In this document: positions 53,468 to 57,396 of the stretch, one piece after another
Position numbering within the stretch: position 1 is the first letter of the stretch
Layout: every line of letters begins with the position of its first letter
The notes under the pieces: generated by a model
The model's input: the letters and a program-made list of their open reading frames with translations, nothing else
Databases searched by the model: none
What the model was told of the DNA's origin: nothing
Program-made: the position numbers and the translations under genes
Source: Chthoniobacteraceae bacterium
GTDB lineage: Bacteria; Verrucomicrobiota; Verrucomicrobiia; Chthoniobacterales; Chthoniobacteraceae
Assembly: GCA_947449735.1 (NCBI GenBank)
Contig: CANFTB010000006.1
Coordinates: 1 to 64,000 of the forward strand
Reading direction: 5' to 3'
DNA: 64,000 nucleotides

Positions 53468-54058
53468 ATGATGCTGGGCTTCATTAATTTGATTGTTTTT
53501 GTTCTCTGCTTGGGCGGGCTTCTCGCCGTCGTCTGGGGTACATTGATTTATAGGAGCTTGGTCGGGGGCCGTCAGGGGTGTGTCTCTGCGTTCCTTACAT
53601 TACAGGAAGAGCTTGAAGCCCGGTATGAAATGCTGCCCAGGCTGATTGAAACGGCACGCGGGTACATGCGGCATGAGAAGGAGGCCCTCGAAAGCGTCCT
53701 TTCAGCCGTGGCGGTCGCGTCCACTGCGCTTCAGACAATGGGGGAAGCTTCCGACAAGACGGGCCGCTTCGACAGCATTCTTCAGGCGGAGGAGTCTTTA
53801 TCTGAGGGCGTGATGAGGTTCTTTGCCATCTCGGAGGCTTATCCCGAGTTGAAGGCTGACCCAAGGATGAGGCAGTTGGTGCAGTCGTTCTTGGGGCGTG
53901 AGGCTGCGGTGGAGGAATGTCGTGCAGCGTTTAACGAGGCGGTGGCCAAGTTTAATAGGAGCCGAAGCGAATTTCCTGCAGGTTACGTGGCGCGCTTGAT
54001 GAGGATCGACGAAATGGTCAGTTTCGAGAAGGCTTTGGGCGCAGAAGGGGAAGATTAG
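53468..54058 (+). CDS. LemA family protein
   Basis: 196 residues. One N-terminal membrane helix (about 4-27) is followed by a helical bundle. The LemA pattern (Y-x-x-L-V, helix, L-x-x-R-x-x-x-x-P-x-L-I/V, G-Y-x-x-H-E) is seen in YRSLVGGRQGC, LEARYEMLPRLI and RGYMRHEKEAL. A later conserved YPELKADPRMRQL corresponds to the family's YP-L-x-A segment. Function of LemA is not established. Divergent from kdsB by 135 bp. Confidence 0.9.
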   Translation: MMLGFINLIVFVLCLGGLLAVVWGTLIYRSLVGGRQGCVSAFLTLQEELEARYEMLPRLIETARGYMRHEKEALESVLSAVAVASTALQTMGEASDKTGRFDSILQAEESLSEGVMRFFAISEAYPELKADPRMRQLVQSFLGREAAVEECRAAFNEAVAKFNRSRSEFPAGYVARLMRIDEMVSFEKALGAEGED

Positions 54059-54150: not shown

Positions 54151-54666
54151 ATGAAACGGACCGCTGTTTTTGTGGTTTCATGCGTTGCGTCCCTCGTCAT
54201 GCGGGGGCACGCAGCGGGTCCCGTTCGCGTGCATGCTGCCGCCCCGCTTCCATTAGCGCTGGACGATGCCTACAAGGTGGAGAAGGTTTTTTCGCTGTTG
54301 ATTGACCCTGAGGTGGCCGGAAAGGGGTCTTCTCCGTGGCTCAAAATGGAGACCGACCGCCGTTACTTCGGCGCCTTGAATTCCTTTGAAAGGCGCCGGC
54401 GCGATGGTCATTCCTACACAGTGCACTGGGGGGCGCGTCAGACTGCGCCGGCGGGGCTTACGGTGCGGTTTGAATACCGTCAGCAAAAGCTTGGATCACA
54501 GGTGCAGGCTCAGGAGGTATTTTATCCCAAAGTGTCGGGGTCGATGCGCACCGAGTTTACGGTGCAGGGTGATGAGTACTATCAGGATGGCCAGGTGACG
54601 GCATGGAGGGTGGTTCTGGTGGAAAGCGGAAGGGTAGTGGGCCTGCAGCAGAGCTTCCTTTGGTAA
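54151..54666 (+). CDS. Small secreted protein of unknown function
   Basis: 171 residues with a signal peptide (about 1-21, ending HAA). I do not recognise the family. The mature part has KVEKVFSLLIDPEVAGKGSS, then beta-rich segments (SYTVHWGA, GLTVRFEYRQQ, MRTEFTVQGDEYYQDG and a final GVVGLQQSFLW-like strand). This suggests one compact beta-sandwich, perhaps a periplasmic or envelope protein. It is followed 14 bp later by the STAS gene and may be the first gene of that operon. Confidence 0.72.
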   Translation: MKRTAVFVVSCVASLVMRGHAAGPVRVHAAAPLPLALDDAYKVEKVFSLLIDPEVAGKGSSPWLKMETDRRYFGALNSFERRRRDGHSYTVHWGARQTAPAGLTVRFEYRQQKLGSQVQAQEVFYPKVSGSMRTEFTVQGDEYYQDGQVTAWRVVLVESGRVVGLQQSFLW

Positions 54667-54680
54667 CCCCTTCTAATCCT

Positions 54681-55196
54681 GTGACCCCTCAGTCTTCGAT
54701 TCAGGTTGGAGTAGCGGATGGTGCGGTGTGGATCAGGGTCGAGGGACGGGGGAGTTTTCAGAACAGCACTCCACTCAAGGATTTTGCGAGGCAGATGCTG
54801 GCAGGGGGGCACCGCAATTTTTACGTCGACCTGAAGGATTGTGCGCTGATGGATTCGACCTTTATGGGGACTCTTGCTGGAATTGCACTGAAGATTAGAG
54901 CGGAAGGGTTTGGCGAACTCCACGTTGTGAATTCAAACGAGCGGAACGTTTCATTGCTCTGCAACCTTGGATTAAATCACCTGCTGCGGTTGGACGGAGC
55001 ACTTCAGAGCTTTGATGTGGCAGCGCAACAGATGTCTGAGCAATCTACGCTTTCCTCGGTTGCTGTAAACAAGTCGGACGAGGCAAAGACGATGCTCGAG
55101 GCTCACGAAGCAGTTGTGGCTGCCAGCCCGGCTGTCGCGGCACAGTTCAAGGACGTGATCGAGTTTTTGAGACAAAATATCGAAGCAAAAAAGTGA
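54681..55196 (+). CDS. STAS-domain protein (anti-sigma-factor antagonist-like)
   Basis: 171 residues from a GTG at 54681. The longest frame starts inside the previous gene at 54603 with 26 implausible residues, so I moved the start past that stop codon; a TTG at 54660 is possible. A STAS domain spans about 8-110: VWIRVEGRGSF, YVDLKDCALMDSTFMGTLAGI with S59 at the position phosphorylated in SpoIIAA-like proteins, then LHVVNSNERN. The C-terminal ~60 residues form a helical extension (EAHEAVVAASPAV). It ends in GTGA, overlapping the start of the STT3-like gene, so the two are translationally coupled. The partner kinase or sigma regulator is not in the window. Confidence 0.8.
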   Translation: MTPQSSIQVGVADGAVWIRVEGRGSFQNSTPLKDFARQMLAGGHRNFYVDLKDCALMDSTFMGTLAGIALKIRAEGFGELHVVNSNERNVSLLCNLGLNHLLRLDGALQSFDVAAQQMSEQSTLSSVAVNKSDEAKTMLEAHEAVVAASPAVAAQFKDVIEFLRQNIEAKK

Positions 55197-56854
55197 ACGA
55201 CGCGGCTTCTCCAGTCGCTGATAGACTGCGTCCGGGTGGATATCGCGAGCGCTTCGGAAGGAGGTTTTCCTTCCCAATAATATTTTTTGCGGTGGTTTTC
55301 GCCGCTGGATTCGTGCGGTTTCACAACCTCACCGATGTTTTAGTGGCCGGACGCGTGTACTTCGTCGACGCGGACTGCTACTCACGAATGAGCAGGGCTA
55401 GGATTGTTTCAAACTCGCCTGGCGCGGTTGTCGGGCGGCAGATGTTTGAAAACTGGCCGGAAGGCGTTCTTTCTCACGCGAGCTCCCCGATGGATTATGC
55501 GATCGTGGGCTTGGAGCGTTTAGTCAGGCGATGCTGGCCGGATCAGGGGCGGTTTTCTGTGCTGCGAACTGCTACTCTGGATCTTGCCGGTGCTATTGTT
55601 TCCCCGCTCCTTGGGATGTTGCTCTGCGCTTTTTTATGCTTCTGGGCCCGCGGCGTCGAGATTGAGCGAGGACGGCGCCTGCAACTCTGGTGGTGCATTC
55701 CGATTTTGGCAGCCATCAGTCCACCCTTGGTTCACGCCACCTTGCTTGGGCGTCCAGACCACCAGTCTCTGCTGCTGGTGTTGCTGGCCGTGGCAATGGG
55801 AGCGGAGCAAAGATTGACGGTCTTTCCGTCCTCAAGGTGGGCGTGGGCGGGCGGGTTTGCGTGGGGAGGGGCTTTGTGGGTCTCATTTTACGAGCCGCTC
55901 GTTTTGCTGTCGCTCTCTCTTGCGCTGTCTGTTTGCTTTTGGCCGGTGAGTTGGAGAGTGAAATCACGGGTGAGATGGGGCATCGGAATTTTGGTTCCCC
56001 TTCTGTTGGGGGTGCTGGTGGACCATCTCAGAATCGTTTTCCCCGATCCTCAAAACATGGAGTCCCTCAAGCGCTGGGGGGCAACGATTGGTGAACTGCA
56101 GCCGCTCCGCGGTCTCTCAAATCTGTCTGCATGGGCGGGGCTTCTTCTGTGGGTGTCGCCGCTAACCGTGTTGTTTGCGCATGGCCGGGACCGCCGGAGC
56201 AACCTTGGGTGGATCTTGCTTTTGTGTTTTAGCGGCTTGCTCGTCCATTGGCAGATACGTTGGAGCCCGTACTTTGTGTTGGTTTTTCTTTTTGTGCTGC
56301 CTCAGGTCCTGACTTTGGCGCAGAGCAGGCGAAGCGGAGCGCTGGCCTTTTCCTTGGCCATGTATCCGCTTTTGGCCGAATGGGATAACCTCCTGTTTCC
56401 TGCGGCGCGGGTCGCAGAGGAGCGCTATATGGATCGGTCTGAACGCGTCAATGCACGCTTGGTGGCGGAACGCATGAAAAGTCCCTCATGCGAGCCCTTT
56501 ATCGCAGTATGGTGGCTGTCCCCGGCCCTGTCTTACTGGTCCGGCCAGCCCGCTGTGGCTGGCAGCGGGCACGAGGGAATCGCTGGCATCATGGACTCTG
56601 CCCGCTTTTTTCTGAGCACCAATCCCACCGGCGCCAAGGAGATCCTTGTCCGTCGCGGAGTATGCACCGTGGTTGCAAGCGACAGCGCGCGGGCCATCGA
56701 AAACTCTTCGCTGCTGCTAGGAGCACTCCCCGACTCGAAGCCTCTTGCGGAGAGACTTTGGCAATCCGACCTCGGACCTGAATGGGGGTTGGAGGGAGAG
56801 AGCAATGTGACCACCTTTCGTTTGTGGCGTCCCGCTCAAAAGCCCGGCCGTTAG
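55193..56854 (+). CDS. STT3/PglB-like GT-C membrane protein
   Basis: 553 residues with about 11-13 hydrophobic segments, starting with GTG overlapping the STAS stop by 4 bp. The layout is that of oligosaccharyltransferase STT3: a first loop DADCYSRMSRAR (59-70; acidic metal site), GRPDHQ at 186-191 in the second acidic motif position, and a C-terminal soluble part with WWLSPALSYWSGQPAVAGSGHEG beginning at W440. The last aligns with WWDYG...YYS...GGKHLG of PglB, but D-Y-G is changed to L-S-P. It is likely a lipid-linked sugar transferase; N-x-S/T glycosylation is doubtful because of this change. Family placement is by motif, not by search. Confidence 0.78.
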   Translation: MNDAASPVADRLRPGGYRERFGRRFSFPIIFFAVVFAAGFVRFHNLTDVLVAGRVYFVDADCYSRMSRARIVSNSPGAVVGRQMFENWPEGVLSHASSPMDYAIVGLERLVRRCWPDQGRFSVLRTATLDLAGAIVSPLLGMLLCAFLCFWARGVEIERGRRLQLWWCIPILAAISPPLVHATLLGRPDHQSLLLVLLAVAMGAEQRLTVFPSSRWAWAGGFAWGGALWVSFYEPLVLLSLSLALSVCFWPVSWRVKSRVRWGIGILVPLLLGVLVDHLRIVFPDPQNMESLKRWGATIGELQPLRGLSNLSAWAGLLLWVSPLTVLFAHGRDRRSNLGWILLLCFSGLLVHWQIRWSPYFVLVFLFVLPQVLTLAQSRRSGALAFSLAMYPLLAEWDNLLFPAARVAEERYMDRSERVNARLVAERMKSPSCEPFIAVWWLSPALSYWSGQPAVAGSGHEGIAGIMDSARFFLSTNPTGAKEILVRRGVCTVVASDSARAIENSSLLLGALPDSKPLAERLWQSDLGPEWGLEGESNVTTFRLWRPAQKPGR

Positions 56855-56906: not shown

Positions 56907-57317
56907 TCACGGGCTGAGTCTGCTCACACGAATCACCTTGTTCGAATTGTCGTAAGTGACTTCGTACGAAAGTTTCTTTCCGCTAAACACGGCCTCTGCT
57001 GGCGTACCCGCGATCTCCCATACTCCTCCCGTTGCCAGATCCATGGTACCATGCGCGAACGCGCGTCCAGCCCTTGCCTCCTTGCTGTAACCCTGGGTGA
57101 AGGAAAACAAGTCGACTCGGTTGTGCCCGACAAGACGGCTTGATAGAGGCTGGCCGAATTCGGCGATGATCGTGCTGCGCGGGGTTCCCGCAGTGAGAAC
57201 ATCCAGATCCTTGCGAGGCGGCTGATTTGCTGCCATGAAAACAGAGCACGCGGGGAGTCCTGAAAGAGCTACCAAAAGCACCGGCAGAAAGACGTGGGTG
57301 GGAGGTATATGTTTCAT
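56907..57317 (-). CDS. Small lipoprotein of unknown function
   Basis: 136 residues. A hydrophobic N-terminus ends in LSGLPAC with a lipobox Cys at residue 24, so it is probably acylated and attached to the membrane. The mature part has LDVLTAGTPRSTIIAEFGQP, a pattern that resembles the start of BamE/SmpA-like domains (G-x-x-x-x-x-v-x-x-x-x-G-x-P), then FSFTQGYSKE, and ends VTYDNSNKVIRVSRLSP. The longest frame begins 13 residues earlier; the ATG at 57317 gives a proper lipoprotein signal. Convergent with the STT3-like gene. Function unknown. Confidence 0.75.
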   Translation of the reverse strand: MKHIPPTHVFLPVLLVALSGLPACSVFMAANQPPRKDLDVLTAGTPRSTIIAEFGQPLSSRLVGHNRVDLFSFTQGYSKEARAGRAFAHGTMDLATGGVWEIAGTPAEAVFSGKKLSYEVTYDNSNKVIRVSRLSP

Positions 57318-57396
57318 GAAAACTTCATCGCCCGAAGCATTCAGATCCGGCCGCAATTACTTCACAAGATTTTGTGGGTCGCTGCTTCGAACCCAA

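Follow-up and report, generated by a model that had tools for sequence, protein, structure and literature searches.

A divergent STT3-like glycosyltransferase family of Chthoniobacterales, adjacent to a STAS gene in a single genus

Oligosaccharyltransferases (OSTs) of the AglB/STT3/PglB type are the closest described relatives of a 553-aa protein encoded in the window, by which we mean the whole stretch of 64,000 nucleotides of Chthoniobacteraceae DNA analysed here. The known enzymes and the window family have in common a fold with a C-terminal core domain, the Asp of the first DXD motif, the Asp at the second DXD position, a TIXE-type motif and a pair of Trp residues; unlike them, the window family has Asp-His-Gln in place of Asp-His-His and WWxSP in place of WWDYG, and the window protein matches no Pfam or NCBIfam family at E up to 1. 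A further Verrucomicrobiota family, represented by the STT3 protein L219, is alike in its first loop (GND) and in a GRPDHH motif near-identical to GRPDHQ, whereas L219 itself lies above the PF02516 cut-off, carries WPYG for WWDYG and matches AfAglB over most of its length. DPY19 C-mannosyltransferases, which act on Trp with Dol-P-Man as donor, are similar in overall fold and come next after the OSTs, scoring under STT3/AglB. In the part of the published AfAglB account that we draw on, D47 belongs to the first DXD motif, the second is an Asp-His-His with D161 and the metal-binding H163, and the TIXE motif, found in external loop 5, touches the acceptor peptide and lies at the metal site (PMC8342417). 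The excerpted report of a new bacterial family, which is tied to STT3/PglB by way of proteins that are uncharacterised and for the most part prokaryotic (PMC10584680), means that divergent STT3 relatives of the window type are to be expected.

The gene directly upstream of the transferase encodes a STAS protein, for which the nearest described counterparts are antagonists of the RsbV/SpoIIAA type with their RsbU/SpoIIE phosphatases. The likeness consists of the Ser/Thr loop and of a GAF-SpoIIE phosphatase gene as a neighbour within the order; unlike those systems, the window's genus keeps STAS and the phosphatase gene at separate loci. The preliminary description knew of no pairing of STAS with STT3-like enzymes, a statement that the open-licence PMC literature leaves uncontradicted: no description of a STAS domain paired with an oligosaccharyltransferase was found there. 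An excerpted account of Anabaena all4160 links STAS to a glycosyltransferase (PMC8256260); we liken it to the window by that description alone, and all4160 is a fusion protein, whereas the window has separate genes.

The features of the locus are collected in Table 1, with open reading frames, coordinates and the GTGA overlap at 55193-55196 all as the preliminary description gave them. The GTG start of the STAS gene at 54681 is backed by homologues starting at about the same position, and a longer frame from ATG 54603 is also open. The lipoprotein-like gene at 56907-57356 has no BamE match at E 0.01.

Table 1. Features of the STAS-transferase locus in the window, and two related loci on other contigs of the same genome.
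Feature	Position	Strand	Remarks
LemA-family gene, upstream neighbour outside the unit	53468..54058	+	PF04011, E 9.6e-29
Small secreted protein gene, companion of STAS	54151..54666	+	Model a beta-sandwich, moderate confidence
STAS-domain protein, 171 aa, anti-sigma-factor-antagonist type	54681..55196	+	MDST loop conserved; PF01740, homologues
GTGA shared by the STAS stop and the transferase start	55193..55196	+	Window and 8/9 genus loci
STT3-like GT-C transferase gene, 553 aa, GTG start	55193..56854	+	ORF, fold, profiles
D-A-D, transferase residues 59-61	55367..55375	+	D61 aligned with Asp of AglB first DXD (Gly-Asn-Asp)
GRPDHQ, transferase residues 186-191	55748..55765	+	Second DXD position, Asp-His-Gln
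TIGE, transferase residues 298-301	56084..56095	+	Putative TIXE-type motif
WWLSP, transferase residues 440-444	56510..56524	+	Occupies the place of WWDYG
Small lipoprotein-like gene, downstream neighbour, convergent	56907..57356	-	BamE below cut-off, E 0.22
GAF-SpoIIE phosphatase orthologue, other contig	G000:C16:20850-22193
Bactofilin pair, other contig	G000:C34:10694-12051

The assignment of the transferase is carried by its predicted fold and by profiles built from its family. An AlphaFold model based on the 61-sequence alignment reached a pLDDT of 93.3 and a pTM of 0.92, and when this model was compared with the PDB by Foldseek, ranks 1-16 were all chains of STT3/AglB or of an OST complex, at E 2e-11 to 3e-8 and with TMq of 0.59-0.69; entry titles served to identify some of these chains. 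DPY19 and PglB followed, with ArnT (E 1e-3) and PMT4 (E 1e-2) lower still. The family profile matches the C-terminal domain of AfAglB-S (3vgp) at E 1.6e-5, or 1e-4 with a larger alignment. At the other end of the protein, hhalign matched the family to L219 with 97.6% probability (E 4e-12) over residues 33-196 of the window protein, a match of the N-terminal part alone against one single sequence. L219 in turn matches PF02516 at E 1.4e-18, above the cut-off, and aligns with AfAglB over residues 31-657 (E 1.1e-14). In the alignment of the family with L219, D61 stands opposite the Asp of GND, and GRPDHQ opposite GRPDHH; since L219 bridges the family and AfAglB, D61 falls at D47 of AfAglB, and D189-H190-Q191 at its Asp-His-His, of which D161 and H163 are members.

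At E up to 1, the STT3 profile matches 2/61 transferase homologues (best 1.3e-4) and the AglB-core profile 33/61 (best 6.6e-4), while one orthologue (G016) scores 23.6 bits against PF02516, for which the cut-off is 24.5. A search of 57 relatives with PF02516 found nothing in the window's genome and a single protein above the cut-off, which is a different one; a PDB search with the single transferase sequence returned AglB only at E 0.6, under a dGTPase hit at E 0.3. Judged by its sequence, the 553-aa protein is formally outside PF02516, and it is best viewed as a member of a divergent GT-C family of the STT3/AglB/PglB fold, of which we found no description in the open-licence literature searched. 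Its designation in the preliminary description as an STT3-like GT-C protein is borne out by the modelled fold, the AglB profile match and the L219 alignment; the profile check against STT3 proposed there gave a divided result, the family and its fold leading to AglB but the window protein itself having no PF02516 match at E up to 1.

The motifs on which that designation had been founded (D-A-D at 59-61, GRPDHQ at 186-191, WWLSP at 440-444, and Y448, W449, G457 and H460) are all present. Across the 61 aligned homologues D61, D189, H190, Q191, E301, R356, W440, W441, P444, W449, G457 and H460 are invariant, and all six residues of GRPDHQ are kept in 61/61; because of this invariance, the named motif residues are not a product of chance. 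At the second DXD position the Asp is kept and a Gln stands where AfAglB has the metal-binding His163, every homologue having Asp-His-Gln (61/61). One motif was absent from the preliminary description: T298-I-G-E301, in which E301 is kept in 61/61 homologues, I299 in 55/61 and T298 in 48/61, fits the TIXE of external loop 5, and on motif and modelled fold we assign it as a candidate TIXE-type loop. The profile alignment sets the WW of WWLSP against the WW of an AglB, and residue 442 is Asp in 0/61 homologues, so the Asp of WWDYG is gone family-wide. This Asp belongs to the Ser/Thr pocket, so the family is unlikely to have the canonical pocket for N-x-S/T, which supports the earlier suggestion that the altered WWDYG points to an acceptor other than the sequon. 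The predicted catalytic loops thus look retained, as far as aligned residues can tell, while the sequon-reading corner looks altered.

Taking enzyme and neighbourhood together, we consider it probable that the locus encodes an OST-like polyprenyl-sugar transferase in a genus-specific STAS operon, free of direct STAS control. The observations beneath this reading are the similarity in fold and profile, the conservation of motifs, and the gene order with its distribution on the tree. Such a membrane glycosyltransferase would take a sugar or oligosaccharide from its polyprenyl carrier and pass it to an acceptor at the outer face of the inner membrane; D61 and D189/H190/Q191 would be placed around a metal ion, together with E301 of the TIXE-type loop, and the changed WWDYG corner would make a classical N-x-S/T acceptor unlikely. 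The loss of WWDYG would also suit a GT-C enzyme that acts on a lipid or polysaccharide acceptor in an ArnT-like role and is not a protein OST, as would the lack of any STT3 match (E up to 1) in 59/61 members, the presence of ArnT and PMT4 among the Foldseek matches, and the uncharacterised prokaryotic relatives of STT3/PglB mentioned in the excerpt of PMC10584680. We hold this to be possible but doubtful: ArnT (E 1e-3) and PMT4 (E 1e-2) fall far below STT3/AglB (about 1e-11 to 1e-8), and the family keeps both an AglB-like C-terminal domain and the TIXE-type loop, the motif that meets the acceptor peptide in the AfAglB passage cited (PMC8342417).

The transferase is widespread in the order. Matches were found in 48/57 relatives searched, comprising 12/12 genomes of the genus, 23/24 from other genera of the family (35/36 for the family in total) and 13/21 from other families of the order, where the figures of 48/57 and 13/21 include one doubtful match in G048 (E 5.6e-4, two internal TGA). 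A wider genome scan yielded 115 relatives, of which 80 were retained; all 80 are from Verrucomicrobiota and many from Chthoniobacteraceae, Spartobacteria or Chthoniobacterales. The set includes Candidatus Udaeobacter and a soil bacterium in culture, Chthoniobacter flavus Ellin428, which has its orthologue in L073. Against 288 genomes of the phylum, the family profile matched six, three within the order and three weakly outside it. In a literature search for Udaeobacter or Chthoniobacter with STT3, neither genus was among the open-licence PMC matches listed. The same order contains another STT3-like protein (L051, G045:C118), which has an ADHH motif and a long tail and is barely above the PF02516 cut-off.

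Against PF01740 the STAS protein scores above the cut-off (25.7 vs 22.6 bits, E 9.9e-6). Among NCBIfam families it is closest to antagonists, although none of these matches reaches its cut-off, and all 41 aligned rows (33 distinct) carry its MDST loop. STAS matches occur in 54/57 relatives, seven of which have no transferase match. For neighbourhoods taken from 20 of these 54 genomes, with neighbours counted by tblastn, a GAF-SpoIIE phosphatase lies beside STAS in 15 of the 19 non-genus loci read, and GrpE is nearby in 15, DnaJ in 14 and an RsmE-like gene in 9. The run outside the genus (L161-L180) consists of the secreted protein, STAS, GAF-SpoIIE phosphatase, GrpE, DnaJ and often the RsmE-like gene, and is split in the window's genus. 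There, an orthologue of the phosphatase is near-full-length in 11/12 genomes, the twelfth giving a weak hit only; in the four genus phosphatase loci that were read, from greedy ORF sets that include some antisense shadows, STAS is absent, DnaJ and the RsmE-like gene are present, and GrpE is labelled in three. The STAS protein would be a partner-switching antagonist, whose natural partner is probably the GAF-SpoIIE phosphatase encoded elsewhere in the genome.

STAS is directly upstream of the transferase in 9/9 resolvable genus loci and adjacent to it in 0/57 non-genus loci having at least 1.2 kb upstream, 14 of the 80 loci, one of them from the genus, being too short for this count. In one further genus genome (G002) the genes are split over contigs in a pattern consistent with adjacency, and another (G006) is outside the count. 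Transferase neighbourhoods among the relatives were taken from 20 of the 48 genomes with a match. In a maximum-likelihood tree of 61 transferases, the 10 STAS-adjacent sequences form a single clade with support 100/100 on a long stem (0.71), and the neighbours of this clade are two rows in which a dihydrolipoamide-dehydrogenase-like gene (Lpd) and bactofilin genes accompany the transferase. The coupling to STAS is real but confined to the genus. Adjacency in other genomes, chosen beforehand in the preliminary description as one test of its proposal, holds within the genus (9/9) and fails outside it (0/57), and the dedicated STAS-regulated glycosylation system proposed there found no support in this comparison, STAS being absent from 57/57 non-genus loci and the phosphatase its usual neighbour. 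We rejected an ancient regulatory pair of STAS and transferase, because the adjacency is genus-only and a single clade and STAS is usually found with the phosphatase.

Within the genus, regulation deserves separate consideration. The GTGA overlap is present in the window and in 8/9 genus loci, and its retention while the transferase protein has diverged to 49-59% identity is some evidence of selection on co-expression. A real regulated module, in which STAS, through its phospho-switch, governs the enzyme either by direct contact between the proteins or by fixed co-translation, would be in keeping with that retention, with a gene order found in 9/9 genus loci (the secreted gene in 8/9), and with a clade stem of 0.71 that could reflect changed constraint. 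We nevertheless judge it quite improbable. STAS occurs in 54/57 relatives, including the seven without a transferase match, and in most of the loci read its neighbour is the phosphatase; the MDST loop of STAS has stayed the same; the overlap is missing from one genus locus (L065); and STAS is expected to be cytoplasmic, with the active site of the enzyme outside. The overlap itself was rejected as decisive evidence of partnership because, of the 20 non-genus loci having Lpd, 16 show a 4-base ATGA or GTGA overlap between the transferase and this unrelated gene. A genus-conserved 4-base overlap can in this way hint at a partnership that wider gene order fails to support. On the preferred reading, of an OST-like transferase in a genus-specific operon, the transferase and STAS genes would have been joined once, in the lineage of the genus; today they probably share a transcript and are coupled in translation, and direct regulation of the enzyme by STAS is not indicated.

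In the genus transferase clade (A2), 18 residues are specific to the genus, and none of them falls within the named catalytic motifs; together with the long stem of the clade, these perhaps reflect faster change after relocation. In two genomes of another family (f6), the distance between STAS and transferase is about 3 kb, with both genes on one strand (G049, L151), or about 10 kb, with the genes divergent (G040, L150); in neither are they adjacent. The STAS-phosphatase run of this family, separated from the transferase and gyrase genes by 3-10 kb, is a possible trace of an ancestral layout. This proximity means that the STAS and transferase loci may once have lain close together, which counts against our reading.

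Outside the genus, two bactofilin genes lie downstream of the transferase, on its own strand, in 51/63 loci having at least 1.8 kb downstream (7/70 were too short); the bactofilins are directly next in 38 of the 51 and separated from the transferase by Lpd in 13, and the pair is absent downstream in 12/63. The pair loci, within L071-L140, have the order enzyme-(Lpd)-BactA-BactB, and PF04519 was found in both bactofilin proteins scanned. In a second set of 19 non-genus loci, which overlaps the first in being drawn partly from the same contigs, the pair is present in 10, from families f1, f4, f8, f9 and f12. The excerpt consulted describes bactofilins as membrane-associated polymers that bind client proteins (PMC12448750), and no link between bactofilins and oligosaccharyl transfer was found in the open-licence PMC literature.

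That the enzyme works with a bactofilin scaffold, and could sit at a growth or division zone, is compatible with the preferred reading, and we regard it as a tentative possibility. The single-strand order in 51/63 non-genus loci would speak for it, as would the recurrence of the pair near the enzyme in five families (f1, f4, f8, f9 and f12), its persistence beside the transferase in two different surroundings (gyrB/Lpd, or DUF5069 and nucleotidyltransferase genes), and the scattering of the Lpd-bactofilin arrangement across the tree, with 7 changes. Weighing against it, the arrangement without Lpd, which accounts for 38 of the 51, forms a single clade within the coverage of the tree (25 tree rows, 23 from the 38) and goes with wider shared synteny, so these loci do not count as independent support and what independent support there is becomes smaller; the pair is missing in 12/63 loci; and the window's genus has its bactofilins elsewhere in all three loci read. 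A fuller proposal, that a Chthoniobacterales OST-like family including Candidatus Udaeobacter, with WWDYG lost and TIXE kept, would be scaffolded by bactofilins and glycosylate non-sequon protein or cell-wall acceptors, with the STAS operon in one genus, strikes us as unlikely in its entirety. The bactofilin neighbourhood suggests a connection, open to test, of surface glycosylation with the bacterial cytoskeleton, and the pair is the partner most worth testing. More broadly, an uncharacterised branch of the STT3 fold in which the acceptor corner is changed and the catalytic loops are apparently kept could show how acceptor choice evolves in OSTs, and divergent OST-like enzymes of this kind may be of use in glycoengineering.

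The small secreted protein had been suggested as a part or target of the transferase system. It is conserved and precedes STAS in 16/19 non-genus STAS loci read, and was seen in 8/9 genus STAS-transferase loci; on gene order we rejected it as the transferase's own partner, since it travels with STAS and not with the enzyme, though it may be a target of glycosylation. No Pfam or NCBIfam family matches it at E up to 1, and its model, a beta-sandwich with a pLDDT of 71.7, returned nothing from Foldseek at E <= 0.001. Its QQSFLW end is invariant across 9 sequences. In three of the loci outside the genus, a large gene divergent from the STAS run (L163:6173-8917, L166:6511-9258, L171:6130-8898) combines an RMMBL (metallo-hydrolase) region with an ATP-dependent DNA ligase.
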